Source: Bacteroidota bacterium
GTDB taxonomy: Bacteria > Bacteroidota > Bacteroidia > UKL13-3
Direction: 5' to 3'
Length of the DNA: 42,411 nt
NCBI GenBank assembly: GCA_030680835.1
Contig: JAUXUD010000096.1
Span: forward strand, 1 to 42,411
The position numbers and the translations under genes were made by a program. Shown here in pieces: positions 6,912 to 34,571 of the stretch (within the stretch, counting starts at the first letter, position 1; the number at the start of each line of letters is the position of its first letter). A model generated the notes under the pieces. That model worked only from the letters and a program-made list of their open reading frames with translations. It did not search any database and had not been told where the DNA came from.

Positions 6912-9029
6912 TTACTCAATAATAAATTTCCCGGATTTCCATAAACCATCAATTCCTTTTAAGGTATAAATATAAATTCCTGTTGCCGGATTTGAGAGCT
7001 TGATTTTTGTTTGGTTTGTATTGCTGTTAACAGAATGAATTTCTCTACCATCAATTGCATAAATGTTAATTGTATGGCTTCCTTCATTTTGTATATCGAA
7101 TATAATTTCATTCCCCGCCATCACCGGATTGGGGTAAACATTTACAAGAATATTATTTTTTGAAATGTTATTTTCTACTCCAACAGCAGCGCTATCCAGT
7201 TTCCAGATGGATGCGTTTTGAGGTGCTGCAAATATTTTTCCATTCACAGAAATCATGGCAATTTTTGGATAGGTAGCCATGCCATTGGTATTGCCCATAT
7301 ATTTCCAGATGGTATCAACAGATGCAAGACCCCAGAGACCCATATTCCCGGAAGTGTTATAAACATAAGCTGTGGAGCCTTGCACAAACAGTCCGCCGCA
7401 TATAGGCCAGGGAGCAGCCGGCATTCCGGTATGGAATGTACGGAAAGTGCTTCCATTATTATCGCTTACATACAATTCATAGTCACGCTGATATAATAAC
7501 CGGTTACCTTGTGTGGCAAAATAACCTCCGAAGCTTAACGGATTTTTCCATGCCCAGCTTGCACCCGCATCAGTGGTCAGGATAAAACCTGCGTTCATTT
7601 CTGCAAGCCAAGCATTTGTACTGTGTTTATGAAAATCCTTAATTACTTTGCTTGTCCATCCGCTTTGCCCTGTAACTGTTTTCTGGCTCCAGTTAGAACC
7701 ACCATCTGAACTCATCCATACTTCAGGGCCTGAGGAATTGCTTACACCGGCTATCATGAGTTGTCCTTCTGCGAAAAATGCAGTAACTGCTTTGCCATTA
7801 AAATAATTTATGGCCGACCACGTTGCTCCATTATCTGTACTTTTATTTACCCCAATATCTTTACATGCATAAACTGAATTGCCATCACTTGCAATATTTG
7901 TATATAAATTGGTATCTGCCAGGTTCCAGCTTGCTCCCATATCGGTTGATTTATATAGTTTAGCTCCTGTTATGGCAAAAACATTATTGCCTGAACCAAT
8001 AAGCTGTGTAATATTCATATAATTCAACCCGTTGTTTTTACCTTGCCAGTTTGTATTGGCCACCGGTTTACTATATATCCCAAAATAAGTAGTTCCAACA
8101 GCAGCCGACCAGGTGAGCGGACTTACCCATATCTGAGAACCATCATAATAGAATACGGTAGCACCGGCAGAATTGCCGTCAATTTTTTCTTCTGTAAAAG
8201 TTGTTCCATTATCTGATGATACATAACATTTATTATAATCGGTAGCGGATACATAAATTTTACTATCTGCAACTTCTATCGTATTCGGACTTGATACCCC
8301 TGTTGAACTCACAATAGTTGCCCCCCAGTCATCAGTATAAAAAACCGGAGCTGCATAAGAGGTGATAAAAAATAAACGGCCGTTTCGATAATCAATAGCC
8401 ATACAGTTATTAAAAGGTAAGGTGGGTAATGGTTTATATATATCAGAAGCGAAATCTGTTAATGTTGCTCCTTTATTGGTACTCCATTTTGGCCGGCCGA
8501 TACCTGCACCTCCAATAACCAATGTGTCGCCTTTGGCAAAAACGGCATTCGTACAACCTCCCTGAACGGTTGGTACCCAATTGGCGCCGAAATCGGCGGT
8601 CTTTAAAACTCCGGCAGTAGTTGTACCTAAAAAAAGTGTATCTTTAATTACAGCCATTTGTGTGGGAGAAAAAACAGCATTTCCCCCAGCCTGAGGTAAA
8701 CCGTTTTGAACTCCAATCCAGGTATTGCCCCCGTCATTACTTTTATACATGCGTATCTTACCATTGTTGGAAGCTGCAAATACAAAGCTCCCTGCTTTTG
8801 CCAAAGCTTTAAAATCGGAAGCATCAGCGGCTACTGTTAATTTAGTCCAGGTAGTGCCGTTGTCTGTAGTTTTGTATAAACCGGATTGAATGCCTGCATA
8901 CATGATGCTGCCATCTTTTAAAAAGCAGGTTGCCTGAGCACCTCCGGATGGTCCGGCGGTAGGTTTAAATTGTGCGGTTAAGTTTAGTTGGCTAAGCAGA
9001 ATTGTAATAATTAGAATAGATTTTTTCAT
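6912..9029 (-). CDS. Type IX-secreted beta-propeller (BNR/WD40-like repeat) protein
   Basis: This 705-residue protein opens with a signal peptide (MKKSILIITILLSQLNLTAQ). Its body has many repeats of the sialidase-type Asp-box or photosystem II stability-factor type: units such as S-x-D-x-G-x-T-W recur (for example K-T-T-D-N-G-T-T-W near 49, K-S-N-D-G-G-N-T-W near 105, S-S-D-G-G-S-N-W further on). These predict one or more beta-propellers. The last 80 residues are a type A sorting domain (V-Y-P-N-P-V, then G-I-Y-I-Y-T-L-K-G and a C-terminal K-F-I-I-E), so it should be exported by the Sec system and then moved over the outer membrane by the type IX system. No catalytic residues can be assigned. 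A surface binding or adhesive role is a guess. Confidence 0.88.
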   Translation of the reverse strand: MKKSILIITILLSQLNLTAQFKPTAGPSGGAQATCFLKDGSIMYAGIQSGLYKTTDNGTTWTKLTVAADASDFKALAKAGSFVFAASNNGKIRMYKSNDGGNTWIGVQNGLPQAGGNAVFSPTQMAVIKDTLFLGTTTAGVLKTADFGANWVPTVQGGCTNAVFAKGDTLVIGGAGIGRPKWSTNKGATLTDFASDIYKPLPTLPFNNCMAIDYRNGRLFFITSYAAPVFYTDDWGATIVSSTGVSSPNTIEVADSKIYVSATDYNKCYVSSDNGTTFTEEKIDGNSAGATVFYYDGSQIWVSPLTWSAAVGTTYFGIYSKPVANTNWQGKNNGLNYMNITQLIGSGNNVFAITGAKLYKSTDMGASWNLADTNLYTNIASDGNSVYACKDIGVNKSTDNGATWSAINYFNGKAVTAFFAEGQLMIAGVSNSSGPEVWMSSDGGSNWSQKTVTGQSGWTSKVIKDFHKHSTNAWLAEMNAGFILTTDAGASWAWKNPLSFGGYFATQGNRLLYQRDYELYVSDNNGSTFRTFHTGMPAAPWPICGGLFVQGSTAYVYNTSGNMGLWGLASVDTIWKYMGNTNGMATYPKIAMISVNGKIFAAPQNASIWKLDSAAVGVENNISKNNILVNVYPNPVMAGNEIIFDIQNEGSHTINIYAIDGREIHSVNSNTNQTKIKLSNPATGIYIYTLKGIDGLWKSGKFIIE

Positions 9030-9112
9030 GTGTTTAAAAATTAAATGAATAAATAATTATTAAATTACGATATTGGTACTTATCAATTTTTGATGATTTG
9101 TTTAAAAATATC

Positions 9113-10906
9113 TTACAATTTTGTCGGGTCAAATTTCCCAAACCATATGGAATTGCCCCAGCGCTCAGTGCCTGTAAATCCACCTTTGCGCTCCCGTGCC
9201 AGGTAAACATATTCTTTACCGCCGTTTATCAGAAAGTAAGGCTCTTTATTCCCCTTTTCATTTTCCAAATCCATGTATAGGTAAAAGTCCTCACCACCAA
9301 ATAATTTAAAATCACTGATGGTTCCGGATGCAATATCTATCTTACCTATTCTTCCCTGGAAGAGCGGAGTATAATAACAGGTGGTTGTATTTGTTGTGGT
9401 GTTAATACCAATACTTGTTTGATAGGAACAATCCTCATCCACGTCCTTTACCAGAAAAACATTCCAGACCAAACTTTTTTTATCCGGACTTTCGGTCAAT
9501 GTGCTTTTCGACGGAAATGCTTGCGCGTTGGCGATGGGGCGCAACCGATTTTTTGCTGTATTCTCAATGCCATAAAATCTTTTGAAATTACCGTCTTTGT
9601 CAAATTGAAACATCAACAGATCTTTAAACGCACGATAAGAATAAGAACTCCCTACGGGCTTTTGATTTTTGAAATCCTGTCCGTCAATAAAAATATCTCC
9701 TGTGCCTGTAATATTAATGCTGTTAAGAACAAACCGTTTTCCATCAAACGCATACATTTTCTTTTGAGATGGGGTCTTAACTGCTTTGGAATTTATTTCT
9801 TCTATACTCACTGCATTTAAAAAGGCAAGTTTGCCATCGGTAACTTTCATGATCTGGAGGTACTCATACTTTTTCTCTTCCCAAATAGTTTCCCGCTGTT
9901 CATCTGTAAACCCTATGGCCGACATTCCACCTGCGCTCAGACTAAATTCATTATATTTTTTCTCTGGTTTGTCAATCATCCCCGGACCATATAAGAAAAC
10001 ATCTTTTCCATTTTGTGCAATATTCATTACGGCCCAGTTATTACATTTTGATTGAAAGTTAAACCGTTCGATAATATTTCCTCCGGGTGCAACTCTCACA
10101 TAAGTAAAATTGGTAGGAACCGGATCATCAATTTTTTTGTAAAAGGCACAAGGTGCAAAAACATACACGGCATCAAGGTCTCCATTTGGGTCAGTACCGG
10201 ATAAACTACCTTTAAAAATCAAATTCTGGGGAGCGGTAAACAGGAGGGAAGTTTCTTCGGCAATTTGTAAATCTTTGTTGAACCTAAGCAGTAAATAATT
10301 GCGATTACCCGATTTGGCCATATTCGAAATGCCTGGATTTTCAAGGGTTAACACCAAAAGTTCTCCTGATGAAGAAATTTCCTGTTTTGCAAGGTAAAAT
10401 AGTTTTCGCTTCTTACCATCTTCATCCATTGTTGTAGGCTTAACCTTGTCGAGCTCCCTGGTTTCATATTCGTATTGGCCGGTATACCAGTTGAATTTTT
10501 TAATGGTTTGATTTTTTTTCAAAACGAGTTTCCCAACCATATTTGATTGGGCTGTAATCCCTTCATAAATCTCAGCATCCTTTTCACCATCTCCTTTATA
10601 TTTAAACCATTTGTATTTAGTGTTTGCATTTTTCACATCCTGCTCATCAGCAACCGTATTCAGCAGGTTCAGGTTGTAATCAAACTTGTATACTTCAAAC
10701 TTGATTTTTTTGTTTGTTGATTTTGTGACAAACACCATTTCGAATTGCTTTTTGGCATCATCGGTTACCACGTTTCCAAGGTACCCTTTACTTTTTGATT
10801 TGCCCGTTAGCTCCACCGTTTTTTCACTCACAAACGTTTGGGAACTTGCCTTCCTTCCACCAACTATCATGATGAAAAGGATGGTTATTATCAATTTATT
10901 TTTCAT
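9113..10906 (-). CDS. Exported protein of unknown function
   Basis: The product is about 597 residues from the ATG at 10906, which gives a clean signal peptide (MKNKLIITILFIMIVGG, with cleavage near S-S-Q). An in-frame ATG 10 codons upstream (10936) would put hydrophilic residues before it and is less likely. The mature protein is rich in beta-strand-forming, Lys- and Thr-rich segments with phrases such as G-D-I-F-I-D-G-Q-D-F. It has no cysteine-rich, catalytic or sorting motif that I recognise. No C-terminal type IX domain is visible, so a periplasmic or outer-membrane-associated location is likely. A beta-propeller is possible. It stands alone between the propeller protein and pfkA. Confidence 0.75.
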   Translation of the reverse strand: MKNKLIITILFIMIVGGRKASSQTFVSEKTVELTGKSKSKGYLGNVVTDDAKKQFEMVFVTKSTNKKIKFEVYKFDYNLNLLNTVADEQDVKNANTKYKWFKYKGDGEKDAEIYEGITAQSNMVGKLVLKKNQTIKKFNWYTGQYEYETRELDKVKPTTMDEDGKKRKLFYLAKQEISSSGELLVLTLENPGISNMAKSGNRNYLLLRFNKDLQIAEETSLLFTAPQNLIFKGSLSGTDPNGDLDAVYVFAPCAFYKKIDDPVPTNFTYVRVAPGGNIIERFNFQSKCNNWAVMNIAQNGKDVFLYGPGMIDKPEKKYNEFSLSAGGMSAIGFTDEQRETIWEEKKYEYLQIMKVTDGKLAFLNAVSIEEINSKAVKTPSQKKMYAFDGKRFVLNSINITGTGDIFIDGQDFKNQKPVGSSYSYRAFKDLLMFQFDKDGNFKRFYGIENTAKNRLRPIANAQAFPSKSTLTESPDKKSLVWNVFLVKDVDEDCSYQTSIGINTTTNTTTCYYTPLFQGRIGKIDIASGTISDFKLFGGEDFYLYMDLENEKGNKEPYFLINGGKEYVYLARERKGGFTGTERWGNSIWFGKFDPTKL

Positions 10907-12036: not shown

Positions 12037-12110
12037 TCAATTTGCAGGATGAATTAATAATGCAAGTTATTCTTTTTATTCTAAAAGAATGCTGTAGTCG
12101 AAAGTTCCGG

Positions 12111-12176
12111 ATGATAAAAATCAAACCCTGACATAACAGAAATCATAAATCCATATTTTTTGTCTGCTAAACTTTG
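12111..12176 (+). promoter_or_regulatory. ppsA promoter with tandem FNR-like sites
   Basis: ATGATAAAAATCAA (12111-12124, centre 12117.5) and ATAACAGAAATCAT (12133-12146, centre 12139.5) are 22 bp apart. AAACTTTG (12169-12176) is the -7 element, with its G exactly 36.5 bp from the proximal centre. The proximal site has TAA for TGA in its left half, so it is one of two degraded sites in the set. The inferred transcript start is near 12181, 14 bases before the ATG. Confidence 0.65.
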
Positions 12177-16497: not shown

Positions 16498-16615
16498 CAA
16501 ATAAATCAAGTATTGCCCTTGAAACGAATGATTTTACTCAATTTGAGTTTTGATTTATGTCACCACTTTTCATGAAATGGGTCAGAAAAAATTGTATTTC
16601 TATTAAGCAATTTTG
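16498..16615. promoter_or_regulatory. Divergent desaturase/baeRF promoters sharing three FNR-like sites
   Basis: Three sites are spaced exactly 22 bp centre to centre: ATGATTTTACTCAA (16528-16541), TTGATTTATGTCAC (16550-16563) and ATGAAATGGGTCAG (16572-16585). Rightward, CAATTTTG (16608-16615) is 36.5 bp from the third site. Leftward, TTTATTTG (read on the minus strand, 16505-16498) is 36.5 bp from the first. The middle site serves as the distal site of both promoters. Confidence 0.82.
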
Positions 16616-16696: not shown

Positions 16697-17785
16697 ATGA
16701 ATAAACAGGAAATCGAAGAACTTTTAACAGTATCTGAACCCAATTGTATTTCAGTGATTGTTCCTACACATCGCTTTTCGGAAGGTAAGTCTGAAGATTC
16801 ACTGGTGTTGAACAAAGCAATTGAAAGGGTTAAAAACCTCATGAATCATAAGCAAAAACCACAAAATCTGCTAGTCTCAAAACTTGATGAACTACATAAA
16901 CAGATTGATTTTTCACATACCAAGGACGGACTGGGGATTTATATCTCACCAGCTGTTTCCCGGATTGTTCATTTCCCTTTCCCTGTAAAAGAAAAAATAA
17001 ATATCGGGCATCATTTTGACAGCAGGGAATTACTTTATTATAAAAATATATCCGACTATTTTGTTTTGTCTGTTAGTAAGAAATCAATCAGACTGTATAG
17101 CGGAAAAGGGGATGAATTGAAAGAGATTGTCAATGACGATTTCCCCCGTCTTTATCATGAAACATATGAGTATGCGCCACCAAGCATAGCAAGTTCAAAC
17201 AGTTTCAGTAACAAATCCTATGAAAAAGACAAATCAGTAATTCAGGAAACACGGCTCAAAGCATTTCAAAGGTCTGCCGATCGCCTTTTGGGAAAATATC
17301 TTGACACACAAATACCTATAATATTATCGGGAGGTTCAAAAGAAGTAGCAGACTATAAAAAAATCACAAAATTTCAACATTTCATAATAGGTAGTATATT
17401 GGGGAATTACGAATACAATAAAAATGAGGTTGCAGATGCTGCCTGGGATTTTATGCAGGAATTTACAAAAAGGAAAAGGGCGATTTTATTGTCAGATTTC
17501 AGAGAACTGGTTGGGCAAAAAAGGGTGGCCCGGGGGATTAAAGAAACCATGAATGCAGCAAAAGAAGGTAAAGGATCCATGTTGTTGGTTGAAAAAGATT
17601 TGGAATATAAAAAACCATTGCTTAAGAAATCGGTTACTGAACATGTTCCCGACTCCGATCCTGTTGAAAAAATCATTAAAACAGTAGTAGAAAAAAAGGG
17701 GAAAGTAACTTTTATGGACAAGGGTACCCTGGAAGATTTTGGGGGAATTGCATTAATATTAAGATACAGTGATGCCTTAAGTTAA
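16697..17785 (+). CDS. baeRF-family (bacterial archaeo-eukaryotic release factor-like) protein
   Basis: This 362-residue cytoplasmic protein resembles the bacterial eRF1-like families. The N-terminal portion begins with C-I-S-V-I-V-P-T-H-R (residues 17-26), the central part has the F-x-L-S-V-S-K-K-S-I-R-L-Y pattern near 125-137, and the C-terminal part has a pelota/eRF1 domain-3-like stretch with K-I-I-K-T-V-V-E-K-K-G-K-V-T-F-M and a final G-G-I-A-L-I-L-R-Y. These proteins are thought to act on stalled ribosomes or tRNA under stress, but activity is unproven for most families. Transcription should start near 16620 from a tandem-site promoter. A bidirectional terminator follows the gene. Subfamily assignment is uncertain. 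Confidence 0.75.
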   Translation: MNKQEIEELLTVSEPNCISVIVPTHRFSEGKSEDSLVLNKAIERVKNLMNHKQKPQNLLVSKLDELHKQIDFSHTKDGLGIYISPAVSRIVHFPFPVKEKINIGHHFDSRELLYYKNISDYFVLSVSKKSIRLYSGKGDELKEIVNDDFPRLYHETYEYAPPSIASSNSFSNKSYEKDKSVIQETRLKAFQRSADRLLGKYLDTQIPIILSGGSKEVADYKKITKFQHFIIGSILGNYEYNKNEVADAAWDFMQEFTKRKRAILLSDFRELVGQKRVARGIKETMNAAKEGKGSMLLVEKDLEYKKPLLKKSVTEHVPDSDPVEKIIKTVVEKKGKVTFMDKGTLEDFGGIALILRYSDALS

Positions 17786-18603: not shown

Positions 18604-18669
18604 CGAAATAAATTTACTGCATATCAAAATTTGATGAAAACAGTCATAATTTGGCTTGATTTTAATCAA
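18604..18669 (-). promoter_or_regulatory. BON gene promoter with tandem FNR-like sites
   Basis: The proximal site is ATGAAAACAGTCAT (18634-18647, centre 18640.5). The distal site TTGATTTTAATCAA (18656-18669, centre 18662.5) is a perfect FNR-type box. The minus-strand -7 element TTATTTCG spans 18611-18604, with its G exactly 36.5 bp from the proximal centre. The inferred start is near 18599, 44 bases before the ATG. Confidence 0.82.
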
Positions 18670-18681
18670 ACGAATTAACTC

Positions 18682-18747
18682 GTGAGAAAGGTCAATTGTC
18701 GGGGTGATCACCGTCATAATTTTTTTTTTCATTCAATGTTACCTTCG
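18682..18747 (+). promoter_or_regulatory. Promoter of the small RNA/polX with tandem FNR-like sites
   Basis: GTGAGAAAGGTCAA (18682-18695, centre 18688.5) and GTGATCACCGTCAT (18704-18717, centre 18710.5) are 22 bp apart. TACCTTCG (18740-18747) follows at the standard 36.5 bp. This pair is separate from, and divergent to, the BON pair 13 bases to its left. The inferred start is near 18752. Confidence 0.8.
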
Positions 18748-21544: not shown

Positions 21545-21610
21545 ATGACCAGGATCAATATTAAATTTGACAGGTATCATACCTGTTAAGATAAGCCCAA
21601 ACTAATTTTG
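21545..21610 (+). promoter_or_regulatory. Promoter of the microprotein/phosphoribosyltransferase operon with tandem FNR-like sites
   Basis: ATGACCAGGATCAA (21545-21558, centre 21551.5) and TTGACAGGTATCAT (21567-21580, centre 21573.5) are 22 bp apart. TAATTTTG (21603-21610) matches the -7 consensus and lies exactly 36.5 bp downstream. The inferred start is near 21615, so the first open frame on the message is the microprotein at 21631. Confidence 0.85.
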
Positions 21611-23057: not shown

Positions 23058-23123
23058 CAAAATTTAACTTGATAAGTGATTTTTGGTATGATTAAAAACA
23101 GATTTTGTATTGATTTTAATCAC
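23058..23123 (-). promoter_or_regulatory. Hsp20 promoter with tandem FNR-like sites (proximal one degraded)
   Basis: The distal site TTGATTTTAATCAC (23110-23123, centre 23116.5) is strong. The proximal ATGATTAAAAACAG (23088-23101, centre 23094.5) keeps TGAT but has ACA instead of TCA. AAATTTTG on the minus strand (23065-23058) has its G exactly 36.5 bp from the proximal centre. Confidence 0.68.
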
Positions 23124-23173: not shown

Positions 23174-23239
23174 TTGATATAAATCAAATCCTTCAATGAA
23201 TGTTGTCAACTCTAAGATAATCGGGTACAAATATTTTTG
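23174..23239 (+). promoter_or_regulatory. L,D-transpeptidase promoter with tandem FNR-like sites
   Basis: TTGATATAAATCAA (23174-23187, centre 23180.5) is a perfect FNR-type box. ATGAATGTTGTCAA (23196-23209, centre 23202.5) follows at 22 bp. TATTTTTG (23232-23239) is a perfect TAnnTTTG element 36.5 bp downstream. The inferred start is near 23244. Confidence 0.88.
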
Positions 23240-24840: not shown

Positions 24841-24906
24841 TTGATATTTATCATGCTTGTTTTTGACTCTTATCATTATTACCCAATACTTTCCGAAATA
24901 ATTTTG
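24841..24906 (+). promoter_or_regulatory. Universal stress protein operon promoter with tandem FNR-like sites
   Basis: TTGATATTTATCAT (24841-24854, centre 24847.5) and TTGACTCTTATCAT (24863-24876, centre 24869.5) are 22 bp apart. TAATTTTG (24899-24906) is a perfect -7 element at the standard distance. The inferred start near 24911 leaves a 24-base leader. Confidence 0.88.
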
Positions 24907-29336: not shown

Positions 29337-29402
29337 CAGAATTATATTTTAATCTGTTCACGTACTTTGATAAAAGTCAATTCCTGGTATGATGTATGTC
29401 AA
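29337..29402 (-). promoter_or_regulatory. mlaEFD promoter with tandem FNR-like sites
   Basis: The proximal TTGATAAAAGTCAA (29367-29380, centre 29373.5) and distal ATGATGTATGTCAA (29389-29402, centre 29395.5) are 22 bp apart. The minus-strand -7 element TAATTCTG spans 29344-29337, with its G exactly 36.5 bp from the proximal centre. The inferred start is near 29332. Confidence 0.84.
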
Positions 29403-29443: not shown

Positions 29444-29509
29444 CTGACATGTATCATTGAATCATTTGAGGCTGATCATGAGCATTGCGTATAGGATTTG
29501 CTTGCTTTG
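29444..29509 (+). promoter_or_regulatory. Promoter of the outer-membrane-like/serine hydrolase operon with tandem FNR-like sites
   Basis: CTGACATGTATCAT (29444-29457, centre 29450.5) and TTGAGGCTGATCAT (29466-29479, centre 29472.5) are 22 bp apart. TTGCTTTG (29502-29509) sits at the standard distance. The inferred start is near 29514. Together with the mlaEFD pair this makes four sites in a divergent region of about 170 bases. Confidence 0.78.
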
Positions 29510-31489: not shown

Positions 31490-32545
31490 TTAATTCTTCA
31501 TTTTAATCAGTTTTTCCTGATTAAGAATTGCAATATTGCTCCCTTTAATGGCAATAATACCTTCATCTTTGAAATCAGAGAGGGTTCTGGTAACGGTTTC
31601 TGTTGCCGTACCAACTAAACCTGCCAGGTCTTCACGGGAAACTGCCATACTCAGGTTTTCACCTTCTTTTGAATAGCGTTCCTGTAACATGATTAAAGCT
31701 TCTGCTACCCTTTTTCTTACTGAATTGTAAGCTAGCCTTACCAGCCTGTTTTCCATTTCTGAAACGTTACCGGAAAGCATTTTAATAAACTTGGCAGCAA
31801 CGTCCCGGTTTGAATAAAGCAGTGAAAAAAACTCATTTTTCGGAATAATTACGGCTTCGGTATCTTCCATGGCAATGGCTGCATCTGTATATGGCAGGTC
31901 CTCAAGGAGCGCTGTGTAACCAATAAAATCACCTTCCTTATATAGTCCGGTAACGTATTCCTTACCATTATCATTTGATTTACAGGTTTTAACTTTTCCT
32001 TTGGTAATAAAAAATACTCCTCTTGGATGGTTGGTTTCCATGTAAAGGCTGTCTTTTTTCCTGTATAATTTCCGTTCCTTATCATCTGATATTTCCTTGA
32101 GTGAATCAGTTCCTTGTGCTTCTTTAAAGAAATCGTTAAGTCCTTCTGCAGTTCGTGCAAACTCAATCCTCAGAATCTCATGCTTTTTCAAACGGGTTTC
32201 AACAGCCTGTAGTAAATCTGCATTCTCAAAAGGTTTTGTCAGATAATCATCAGCTCCCATTCCCATCCCCATTCTCTGGTCACTTTTTTCTGCCTTGGCT
32301 GTAAGGAAAATAAAAGGTATTCCGGCAGTTTCACTATCATTTCCAAGCATATGCAATACGCCGTATCCGTCCAATTCAGGCATCATAATATCACAAACAA
32401 TCAGGTCGGGCTTTTCATGTTGTGCAAATTTTACACCTTCCTTCCCATTCGTTGCCGTGATTACTTTATATTTAGCCAGTTCAAGTATCTCTGCAATGTT
32501 TTCACGCATGTCAGGATTGTCTTCAATAAGCAGGATTGTTTTCAT
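31490..32545 (-). CDS. Response regulator: receiver domain fused to a Crp/FNR-type cNMP-fold and HTH
   Basis: This 351-residue protein has an N-terminal receiver domain (1-122, with D9/D11 region, phospho-acceptor D52, T82 and K104), a cyclic-nucleotide-binding-type beta-roll (about 150-265) and a Crp-type winged helix (about 270-345). The recognition helix contains E316-T-V-T319-R320, close to the E-T-x-S-R of FNR and FixK, which reads TTGAT half-sites. No cysteines for an FNR iron-sulphur cluster are visible in the beta-roll. Its partner kinase gene lies 20 bases upstream in the same operon. The operon promoter carries the same sites, so it is the best candidate for regulator of the 13-promoter set, and would control itself. 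Confidence 0.9.
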   Translation of the reverse strand: MKTILLIEDNPDMRENIAEILELAKYKVITATNGKEGVKFAQHEKPDLIVCDIMMPELDGYGVLHMLGNDSETAGIPFIFLTAKAEKSDQRMGMGMGADDYLTKPFENADLLQAVETRLKKHEILRIEFARTAEGLNDFFKEAQGTDSLKEISDDKERKLYRKKDSLYMETNHPRGVFFITKGKVKTCKSNDNGKEYVTGLYKEGDFIGYTALLEDLPYTDAAIAMEDTEAVIIPKNEFFSLLYSNRDVAAKFIKMLSGNVSEMENRLVRLAYNSVRKRVAEALIMLQERYSKEGENLSMAVSREDLAGLVGTATETVTRTLSDFKDEGIIAIKGSNIAILNQEKLIKMKN

Positions 32546-32565
32546 TATTTTTATTTATTAAGAAT

Positions 32566-33756
32566 CTATTTTATAATAAATTTAAGGGTAAATACGGTTC
32601 CTTCATTTACAGAGCTTTTGTATGCGATATCACCACCCATTAATTCTATATATTTTTTTACGATATTTAAGCCCAAACCGGTTCCCTGTTCATTCCCGGC
32701 ATTCTTGGCGCGGAAAAAACGCTGAAACAAAAATTGCTGGTCTTCCTTTGGAATTCCTATTCCCTGGTCTTTTACTATTATTGTAACCTTATCATTTTCA
32801 CAAAGGGTTTCAAAATTAATTTCCCGGTCTTCCGGAGAATATTTAATCGCATTGGAAATAAGATTGAATAATACATTTTTCAGCAATTGCTTATCAAGAA
32901 ATGCTTGATTTTTATTTCCAATATGCTTATAAATAATGTTTTGACCTATTTTCATCATAGGCCGCATTTCCTCAATGGTGTCTTTTGCAAATTCATCGAG
33001 GTCAAAATATTCGGGTTGGTTCCTAACAACCCCCTCTTCTAATTTACTTAATGATAGGAAATCATTTAATATCTGTGTTAAATTGTGCACAGATGAACGA
33101 ATGCGTGTTATATGCTTTAGTCTTTTTTCCTGATCACGGGTTTCGGGATATTGCCCGATTAATGATACTGAAGATAATATTGTTGCCAATGGCGTCCTGA
33201 ATTCATGTGAAGCAGTGGTTATAAATCTGGATTTTAACTCATTTAATTCCTTTTCCGTTTCAAGCGATCTCATTACTTCCTGCTTCGACTCGGCAAGTTT
33301 ATTAATAGCCTGTGCCAATTCTTCGGTTCTTTCGGCTACCCTATGTTCGAGTTCCGCATTCAAAGCACTTATTTCATGCTGCTGTTTTATCCTTTCAGTG
33401 ATATCAATAATAAAACTCATGAAAAACTGACCTTCACTGGTGGAAAAACTGCTTAAACTAACTTCAACCGGAAACTCGGTGCCGTCTTTTCGCATGGCAT
33501 GAAGATCCATTCCAATACCCATACCTCTTGAATGGGGATTACTCATAAACTGGGTACGGTGCGTAACGTGAGCGGCAGCAAACCGGTGCGGAATCAGTAT
33601 TTCAATTTTTTTATGGTAGAGCTCGTCTTTTGTATATCCGAAAAGCAATTCGGCTTTGGGATTAACCATGATTATTCCTGCATCTTTACCCACAACAATG
33701 ATGCCTTCAGTTGCATTTTTAAATAATGCATCGAGCATCTCTATTTCCTGTTTCAT
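32566..33756 (-). CDS. PAS-domain sensor histidine kinase
   Basis: This 396-residue kinase has a PAS domain (about 5-122), a coiled coil (about 125-170), HisKA with the phospho-acceptor in A-S-H184-E-F-R-T-P-L, and an ATPase domain with N-L-I-S-N-A-I-K-Y, D-Q-G-I-G-I-P and G-T-G-L-G-L-N-I. There is no transmembrane segment, so it senses a cytoplasmic signal. The PAS domain resembles FixL in layout, and H63 falls near the FixL haem ligand, but the FixL distal Arg position (G-I-G-R) is Met here. Non-haem PAS domains can also carry that His, so haem binding is open. It should phosphorylate the receiver-Crp protein encoded next. Confidence 0.92.
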   Translation of the reverse strand: MKQEIEMLDALFKNATEGIIVVGKDAGIIMVNPKAELLFGYTKDELYHKKIEILIPHRFAAAHVTHRTQFMSNPHSRGMGIGMDLHAMRKDGTEFPVEVSLSSFSTSEGQFFMSFIIDITERIKQQHEISALNAELEHRVAERTEELAQAINKLAESKQEVMRSLETEKELNELKSRFITTASHEFRTPLATILSSVSLIGQYPETRDQEKRLKHITRIRSSVHNLTQILNDFLSLSKLEEGVVRNQPEYFDLDEFAKDTIEEMRPMMKIGQNIIYKHIGNKNQAFLDKQLLKNVLFNLISNAIKYSPEDREINFETLCENDKVTIIVKDQGIGIPKEDQQFLFQRFFRAKNAGNEQGTGLGLNIVKKYIELMGGDIAYKSSVNEGTVFTLKFIIK

Positions 33757-33877
33757 GTGGGTTATTTAATTGTATTTTCCACGAATATAATAATAAATTA
33801 ACAGACAGTAACTTTTGAAGGTTTCTGCAAGCAAAATATTACACTAAAAATAGGATCAGAATATATGATCAGGAGAA

Positions 33878-33943
33878 CAAATGTCGGTGAGAAAAAAAGT
33901 CAAGGGATTGATATAAATCAATAAAAACACTGAACAATATCAA
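33878..33943 (-). promoter_or_regulatory. Kinase/regulator operon promoter with tandem FNR-like sites
   Basis: The proximal TTGATATAAATCAA (33908-33921, centre 33914.5) is a perfect FNR-type box. The distal CTGAACAATATCAA (33930-33943, centre 33936.5) lies 22 bp away. The minus-strand -7 element GACATTTG spans 33885-33878, with its G at the standard 36.5 bp. The inferred start near 33873 leaves a leader of about 117 bases. Confidence 0.82.
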
Positions 33944-33960: not shown

Positions 33961-34488
33961 TTAAAGATTATGGTTTTTCAATTTGTCCATTTGCAACAGC
34001 CTGGGAAAAAGGATTTCTTCTTCAAGAAAAATATGTTTTAATATATCCTGTTCAAAGTTAAACAGTTGCGCATAACTTAATTTTATTGTGGCCGAAGTTT
34101 CGGAGGCAGGCGTGTAATTATTGCTTACCTGACGAAGTTTTTTGAAAAGTTTGAGTATGGCCTGGTGTTTTAATTTAATCTCCTTGAAAGAAATGTGAAA
34201 TTCACTGAGCTTTGTACTGTTGGTATTTTCTATTTTTAGCCTCAGATAAGGGAAAAATATTCGTTCATCCTCATCAAAATGCTTTTGAATCAGTTTACCC
34301 AATTTGATTAAAATATCACCAATAATTTTTGATTCTTCTTTATTATCCGAATTTGAAATGGTTTTTGAGCATAAAATAAAAGTAGCCAAAGTTTTTTGAA
34401 GATAAGGTTGTTGAACATCCATCAGATAAACTCCTAAATTATCCGTAGACATTTCACTAAAACTCAAACTTTCAGCTTTTCTTTTCAT
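33961..34488 (-). CDS. RIC/YtfE-like hemerythrin-fold protein with altered iron site
   Basis: This 175-residue, four-helix protein matches the hemerythrin-like domain of the RIC (YtfE/ScdA) di-iron proteins, which repair iron-sulphur clusters or handle nitric oxide. Conserved parts are H70-x3-D-E-R-I-F-F-P, L-K-H108-Q, the N-N-Y-T-P-A-S-E-T-S stretch and K-H152-I-F-L-E156-E-E-I-L-F-P. The N-terminal ScdA domain is absent. The first helix, where RIC has a His pair, reads V-Q-Q-P-Y, so at least one expected iron ligand is missing. It may bind one iron, or bind differently. It has its own tandem-site promoter, and its transcript start (about 34501) lies 13 bases before the ATG. Confidence 0.82.
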   Translation of the reverse strand: MKRKAESLSFSEMSTDNLGVYLMDVQQPYLQKTLATFILCSKTISNSDNKEESKIIGDILIKLGKLIQKHFDEDERIFFPYLRLKIENTNSTKLSEFHISFKEIKLKHQAILKLFKKLRQVSNNYTPASETSATIKLSYAQLFNFEQDILKHIFLEEEILFPRLLQMDKLKNHNL

Positions 34489-34505: not shown

Positions 34506-34571
34506 CAAAATTGCATTATAATGTGAAGAGCTGGGATGACCTGTGTCAAATGCGGATATGATTCTGGTCAT
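34506..34571 (-). promoter_or_regulatory. Hemerythrin gene promoter with tandem FNR-like sites
   Basis: The proximal ATGACCTGTGTCAA (34536-34549, centre 34542.5) and distal ATGATTCTGGTCAT (34558-34571, centre 34564.5) are 22 bp apart. CAATTTTG on the minus strand (34513-34506) is identical to the baeRF element and lies at the standard distance. Confidence 0.85.

Follow-up and report, generated by a model that had tools for sequence, protein, structure and literature searches.

A receiver-FNR fusion protein of Bacteroidota as the probable activator of low-oxygen and stress genes via a rigid double site

This study concerns a 42,411-nucleotide stretch of DNA from a Bacteroidota bacterium (contig JAUXUD010000096.1 of assembly GCA_030680835.1; the whole stretch is called the window), in which a response regulator joining a receiver to a Crp-type DNA-binding module is encoded next to a PAS histidine kinase. 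It was found that two FNR-like sites at a fixed spacing of 22 bp recur within the window and near the genes of related fusion proteins. Judging from the sequences, such receiver-FNR fusions, which occur in many Bacteroidota, probably turn on low-oxygen and stress genes via this rigid double site. I consider it likely that the two genes form a compact FixL-(FixJ-FixK) system, in which the PAS kinase and the fusion, a class II-type activator, would control a microaerobic and stress regulon through the tandem operator.

Fusion protein and tandem operator

The fusion (31490..32545, minus strand) is a 351-residue open reading frame (ORF) with three Pfam domains, each over its cut-off: Response_reg (4-116), cNMP_binding (159-243), and HTH_Crp_2 (278-348). 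The preliminary description of this DNA, made from the sequence alone, had seen the same order of a receiver with D52, a beta-roll, and a Crp-type helix-turn-helix (HTH) with E316, T319, and R320. Since cNMP_binding and HTH_Crp_2 exceed their curated cut-offs, the protein belongs to the Crp/FNR superfamily. Across 19 aligned full-length fusions, there is no variation at D9, D52, T82, K104, E316, and R320. In 76 further fusion ORFs checked by pattern, the receiver Asp is found in 75, the Thr in 72, and the Lys in 71; with the phospho-acceptor Asp, the Thr, the Lys, and an adjoining kinase gene, the fusion has the features of a two-component response regulator. The proposed likeness of the recognition helix to that of FNR appears sound for E316 and R320, but T319 is atypical; the equivalent residue in the 76 ORFs is Ile in 61, Asn in 2, Val in 1, and Thr in 1, with 11 unmatched by the pattern. 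Thus, Ser/Thr in the recognition helix was rejected as a trait of the family.

The fusion shares the beta-roll, the long C-helix, and the HTH with E. coli CRP, as seen in an AlphaFold model and in sequence matches to the PDB. Given its mean pLDDT of 70 and pTM of 0.36, the model was used only for the domain order and the long C-helix. Unlike CRP, the fusions lack a GE-type cAMP-binding signature (0/76 by pattern; the window protein has GY there). FNR and FnrN, the iron-sulphur (Fe-S) oxygen sensors, have the same domains, half-site type, and Glu and Arg in the helix, whereas the receiver of the fusion stands where their N-terminal cysteine cluster is. OmpR/PhoB-type response regulators have a similar receiver with the acidic pocket and the conserved Thr and Lys, but the output of the fusion is Crp-type. 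Among the NCBIfam matches listed, those of the OmpR/PhoB type lie mainly over the receiver and under their cut-offs. In a 60-row tree, whose bootstrap is not fully settled, the fusion rows form one branch with a support of 100/100. This single branch suggests that the replacement by a receiver arose once. Searches of an open-access library gave no title or abstract on a receiver-FNR fusion of this kind or on the 22-bp operator.

The perfect site and the second site 22 bp away that had been reported in the promoter of the kinase-regulator operon were both recovered: TTGATATAAATCAA, a perfect palindrome, lies at 33908-33921, and a second, weaker FNR-like site begins at 33930. Perfect TTGATN4ATCAA sites number 23 in the genome versus 7 for the backward control. 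In the window, requiring at least 8/10 for both sites, there are five pairs at spacing 22, and no other spacing from 14 to 59 has more than 2. In the own genome (4.30 Mb), the pair with at most one mismatch occurs 26 times, 13 of them inside the window, versus 0 in the backward control. The pair alone at up to three mismatches is a weaker test, with only a twofold excess (202 versus 100).

The 80 best fusion loci in a scan (1.35 Mb in total) have 89 pairs at spacing 22, 11 at spacing 23, and 0-5 at every other spacing from 12 to 63, while the reversed-motif control gave one pair at spacing 22 and five runs of a Markov null gave 0, 0, 1, 0, and 0. At least one pair is present in 52 of these loci, and 96 of the 100 pairs with spacing 22 or 23 fall between genes, with about 81% of the DNA coding by simple ORF calls. 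The loci are mostly labelled Bacteroidota: Dyadobacter, Pontibacter, Adhaeribacter, Emticicia, Reichenbachiella, Chitinophaga, Sediminibacterium, and many metagenome-assembled genomes. One locus (L135) comes from a metagenome-assembled genome titled Azovibrio restrictus, a betaproteobacterial name; a mislabel or a mixed bin is probable.

The pair is tied to a promoter element. Spacing-22 pairs of the 80 fusion loci, of 20 loci of stand-alone FNR-like genes (see below), and of the window were oriented by their neighbouring genes. The Bacteroidota -7 box TAnnTTTG lies exactly 23 nt past the pair end, perfectly in 52 of 161 pair-gene combinations and in 104 with one mismatch allowed; in the unambiguous cases, where a single gene fits, the figures are 35/66 and 59/66. 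Other offsets gave 0-6. The resulting composite, TGAYN4RTCA-N10-TGAYN4RTCA-N23-TAnnTTTG, is 65 bp long with 22 scored bases. Thus, the centre of the proximal site is 29 nt upstream of the -7 box; assuming the usual start site, the proximal site would presumably be near -41.5, the position of a class II activator, and the distal site near -63.5. Sites scoring at least 7/8 and followed by a perfect box at offset 23 number 55; for 38 of them, a second site of at least 7/8 lies upstream, indicating that the tandem is the rule and that exceptions exist. Base preferences are slightly different at the distal and the proximal site. In 40 Markov-simulated windows, there were two matches of at least 18/22 in total. 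The own genome has 30 composites at up to three mismatches, both strands of one pair being counted separately; the backward control gave 0. Of these 30, 14 lie in the 42-kb window.

Which genes lie behind the pairs? In the 80 fusion loci, 128 genes adjoining pairs were clustered, and one representative per named cluster was used for the family search, the regulator pair excepted. By locus count, these genes are the partner kinase (21; a second kinase, 1), a fused CcoN-CcoO cbb3 oxidase (16), Usp (12), a CcoI-like ATPase (7), Hsp20 (4), ScdA-hemerythrin (3), HemN (3), the fusion itself (3), and CcoG (2). A family of small proteins of 122-187 residues, whose representative has no Pfam match, is also encoded behind the pair in six loci (L123:9529-9897, minus strand, and five others).

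Partner kinase and proposed mechanism

The adjoining kinase of 396 residues (32566..33756, minus strand) has the PAS-HisKA-HATPase order by Pfam and lies 20 bp upstream of the fusion in the same direction. A kinase is found immediately upstream of the fusion in 69/80 loci and slightly farther off in 2 more, while 2 loci have no upstream sequence. The mechanism may be outlined as follows. The PAS kinase would phosphorylate D52 upon a change in oxygen or redox state, and phosphorylation would favour the DNA-binding form of the CRP-type dimer. Two dimers would then occupy the tandem operator on one face of the DNA, 22 bp or two helical turns apart; relative to the Bacteroidota -7 box, the proximal site has roughly the position of a class II activator. 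The microaerobic and stress regulon would thereby be activated, which here may be the island at 12-35 kb of the window, own operon included, and elsewhere the cbb3 oxidase and its assembly genes.

This scheme resembles FixL-FixJ-FixK and hFixL-FxkR-FixK of Alphaproteobacteria in having a PAS kinase (with the FixL heme-PAS motif in some members here), a receiver protein, and an FNR-type activator without Fe-S cysteines. In the parts of the literature consulted, the targets of rhizobial FixK and FnrN include the cbb3 oxidase, its assembly genes, and hemN (PMC4999443, PMC7888657); the same predicted targets are read here from site positions. The two systems differ in that the receiver and the FNR-type activator are one polypeptide here. 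There is thus no FixJ or FxkR step, and no separate FixJ activating a separate fixK. The operator also differs, being a 22-bp tandem with the Bacteroidota -7 box. Usp and Hsp20 genes are frequent here but absent from the passages on FixK and FnrN of PMC4999443 and PMC7888657.

Is oxygen the signal? The roles of the aligned His and Arg of the PAS domain are taken here from work on FixL. H63 of the window kinase aligns with the FixL heme histidine, and the window PAS matches FixL structures with E=1.5e-11, the DosP match being weaker. In the kinase alignment, whose rows are domain matches and not all independent, His occupies the heme-histidine column in 56 of 60 aligned rows; in the FixL Arg column, 25 of 61 rows have Arg and 16 have Met. 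The whole motif H...IGIGREV is present in 7 of 69 partner kinases (L085, L087, L089, L109, L110, L137, and L140), and the L110 PAS matches FixL with E=1.4e-29. Oxygen sensing by the kinases of some relatives is therefore well supported by sequence comparison. For the window kinase it is no more than plausible: its PAS retains the His, but Met takes the place of the FixL Arg.

It is possible that the fusion is the reader of the pair while the PAS domain senses another signal, such as redox state, nitric oxide, or a metabolite, and that the regulon serves a general response to stress or one akin to dormancy; I hold this alternative only tentatively. It overlaps the FixL-like explanation except for the signal. 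Most partner-kinase PAS domains diverge from FixL, and that of the window, besides its Met, has another kinase PAS (10jx) and not FixL as its best PDB match. Genes for Usp, Hsp20, BON, and L,D-transpeptidase proteins abound in the island, and part of the partner kinases gave no PAS alignment. On the other hand, the conserved His column, the Arg column, and the seven full motifs favour oxygen, as does the cbb3 oxidase, which is the commonest pair neighbour after the partner kinase.

In an Adhaeribacter locus (L082), the partner kinase, the sole kinase of this kind checked by Pfam, has an N-terminal receiver instead of a PAS domain; inputs thus differ among lineages, which again leaves room for a signal other than oxygen. 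A second kinase gene was observed near the partner kinase in this locus (8717-9997, plus strand) as well as in L070, L083, L086, L088, L090, L091, and L107. The arrangement suggests a longer phosphorelay in loci of the L082 type.

A stand-alone FNR-like protein and the probable readers of the operator

The preliminary description had named another Crp/FNR paralogue and site pairs in genomes without the fusion as findings contrary to its proposal, and both were encountered in part. Other Crp-type proteins of the genome are C30, C92, C101, and the more distant C5 and C71; the HTH_Crp_2 match on C55 looks DtxR-type by eye and was dropped. In the C30 protein, cysteines cluster near the N-terminus, and the recognition helix is almost identical to that of the fusion. 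In addition, a one-mismatch pair adjoins the C30 gene, before a gene for 286 residues and the N-terminal part of a heavy-metal ATPase (L036). The gene of about 280 codons behind the pair adjoining the stand-alone gene (L036:609-1469, minus strand, L148, and related loci) encodes a protein that looks Usp-like by eye, without a Pfam match.

For comparison, the best stand-alone relative in each of 20 fusion-less genomes was taken (355 kb); many are from one genus, and these 20 loci are thus not independent. In the 60-row tree, 18 of the 20 group with C30, and 18 of the 20 have at least four N-terminal cysteines. The stand-alone protein of L163 (G028) has only two, and its stretch has no 22-bp pair. 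Sixteen spacing-22 pairs were found near the 20 genes, in 13 loci, with 0-2 at each other spacing and 0 at 22 in the reversed control. Composites are present in all 10 fusion-less genomes chosen, at 1-21 each, with 0-1 in the control. Thus, the fusion was ruled out as the sole reader of the operator. Since fusion-less genomes carry the operator beside the stand-alone FNR-like protein, which is present here too, the operator is probably common to the fusion and the stand-alone four-cysteine protein. This would resemble the use of the same anaeroboxes by FnrN and FixK in rhizobia (PMC7888657, PMC4999443).

Is the fusion a reader at all? The operators could belong to the C30 protein, with the fusion controlling few or none of them; its place in the island would then be due to chance, or it would itself be a co-regulated target. 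The spacing around stand-alone genes, the near-identical helices, the cysteines, and the pair beside the C30 gene fit this explanation, which I nevertheless regard as unlikely because the fusion keeps an intact HTH with invariant E316 and R320, because composites cluster around it, and because pairs are more numerous where it is present. Over 60 relatives, 312 pairs were counted versus 20 in the backward control. The mean is 8.4 per genome with the fusion (n=25) versus 2.9 without it (n=35; p=0.002, uncorrected for kinship). No pairs were found in 2/25 fusion genomes and in 9/35 fusion-less genomes, and 12/35 fusion-less genomes have four or more. The co-occurrence of the pair and the fusion gene, suggested as a check, was therefore seen as an enrichment, while fusion-less genomes have pairs too. 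In nine fusion genomes chosen, 42 of 129 composites lie within 22 kb of the fusion, against about 2.1 expected; minus the own genome, 29 of 102 do so, against about 1.8 expected. Thus, a large part of the shared operator code is tied to the fusion. The earlier view of the fusion as the likely master regulator holds only in part, and its status as the sole one is unsupported, as the operator also occurs in fusion-less genomes. An FNR-like operator set under phosphorelay control, as had been proposed, is supported by the sequences, which place such operators beside a phosphorelay protein without Fe-S cysteines.

Several observations weigh against the FixL-(FixJ-FixK) explanation. Besides the pairs and composites of fusion-less genomes, no strict pair was found in the flanks of 28 of the 80 fusion loci. 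The fusion genomes G020 and G022 are pairless, and G018, the only other one of the same genus, has one pair. Composites lie near the fusion in 0 of 6 cases in G026 and 1 of 9 in G033. The C30 paralogue may read the window island. Self-control of the fusion, which had been claimed, agrees with a composite of 20/22 before its own operon (33878..33942, minus strand) but is not general: a composite of at least 18/22 lies upstream of 11/65 partner kinases of other loci, a rate close to that of neighbouring genes (133/949). Among the fusions without a kinase directly upstream, 3/9 reach at least 18/22; two of the nine have a kinase slightly farther off. General self-control was thus ruled out, and self-control is common in this neighbourhood.

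The tandem could also be a two-input gate, with one position for the Fe-S-type FNR and the other for the phosphorylated fusion. The slight base differences between the distal and proximal sites would fit different occupants and are equally compatible with two dimers of one protein; the tandem is retained in fusion-less genomes, a point against the gate, and I find it quite improbable. If true, the cbb3 oxidase and stress genes would integrate intracellular Fe-S and kinase signals at a single promoter across Bacteroidota. A repressor-binding or architectural role of the pair is highly improbable, as the proximal centre is fixed 29 nt upstream of the start of the -7 box in most unambiguous cases and the proximal site takes the place of the -33 element, leaving the start site uncovered.

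Predicted regulon genes and implications

The predicted regulon of the FixL-like system in the window can be read from the composites, scored over 22 bases. Next to the kinase-regulator operon, a composite of 21/22 (34506..34570, minus strand) precedes the gene of a hemerythrin-domain protein (33961..34488, minus strand; Pfam), a predicted target. Two composites follow at the MlaE-ABC-MlaD gene set (29337..29401, minus strand, 21/22) and a gene for a hypothetical protein of 97 residues (29445..29509, plus strand, 20/22). The Usp gene pair (24842..24906, plus strand) and the phosphoribosyltransferase gene (21546..21610, plus strand) each have a perfect 22/22 composite upstream. Composites also precede the L,D-transpeptidase gene (23175..23239, plus strand, 21/22) and the Hsp20 gene (23058..23122, minus strand, 20/22), whose true start is probably downstream of the listed TTG. 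Further ones belong to a PolX-like gene (18683..18747, plus strand, 20/22), a triple-BON-domain gene (18604..18668, minus strand, 19/22), and a fatty acid desaturase gene (16498..16562, minus strand, 20/22), the true start of which is probably downstream of the listed GTG. A phosphoenolpyruvate synthase-like gene (12112..12176, plus strand, 20/22) and a phosphofructokinase gene (12081..12145, minus strand, 19/22) share the operator pair at 12112. A composite of 20/22 (16551..16615, plus strand) lies before a baeRF-family gene; the baeRF (bacterial archaeo-eukaryotic release-factor-like) protein, encoded at 16697-17785, is a predicted regulon member.

Does this gene content recur? Apart from the regulator pair, two Usp genes of the window were found in 26 and 18 of the 80 fusion loci, Hsp20 in 8, and MlaF-like ATPases in 6, while the remaining window genes were found in 0-3. 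A conserved island content was thus ruled out, as few window genes recur beyond Usp and Hsp20. The BON gene was considered as a co-occurrence marker, but its occurrences are too few for a verdict (8 places, 7/60 genomes). Of five BON loci in other genomes, a composite was found at one, in a fusion-bearing genome, and none at two fusion-bearing and two fusion-less ones; one of the latter has only about 100 bp upstream, and two G041 places are outside this count.

Beyond the window, composites of at least 19/22 in the own genome lie near genes for pyruvate:ferredoxin oxidoreductase, tyrosine phenol-lyase, a benzoyl-CoA reductase subunit C-like protein, and others. The subunit C gene (over the NCBIfam cut-off; L170, G000:C15 near 57724-57788) has a 21/22 composite and is unexpected in such a genome. 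Upstream of a cytochrome c gene, which precedes a partial Sec-dependent NosZ-like gene (L029, G000:C92 near 26881), there is a perfect 22-bp pair; no composite at up to three mismatches was found there in that direction. On C6, a citrate synthase gene also lies near a pair but was discounted, as that pair falls within another ORF.

The analysis provides a precise, predictive promoter rule of two FNR-like sites, a 10-nt gap, and 23 nt to the -7 box. This rule allows the regulon to be read from DNA alone in many genomes and is open to testing in culturable hosts such as Dyadobacter and Pontibacter. It also prompts the question of how one operator can serve two FNR-type proteins that differ in their inputs. 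With the receiver-FNR fusion and its partner kinase, Bacteroidota would have a putative equivalent of the FixLJ-FixK oxygen cascade, shortened by one step.

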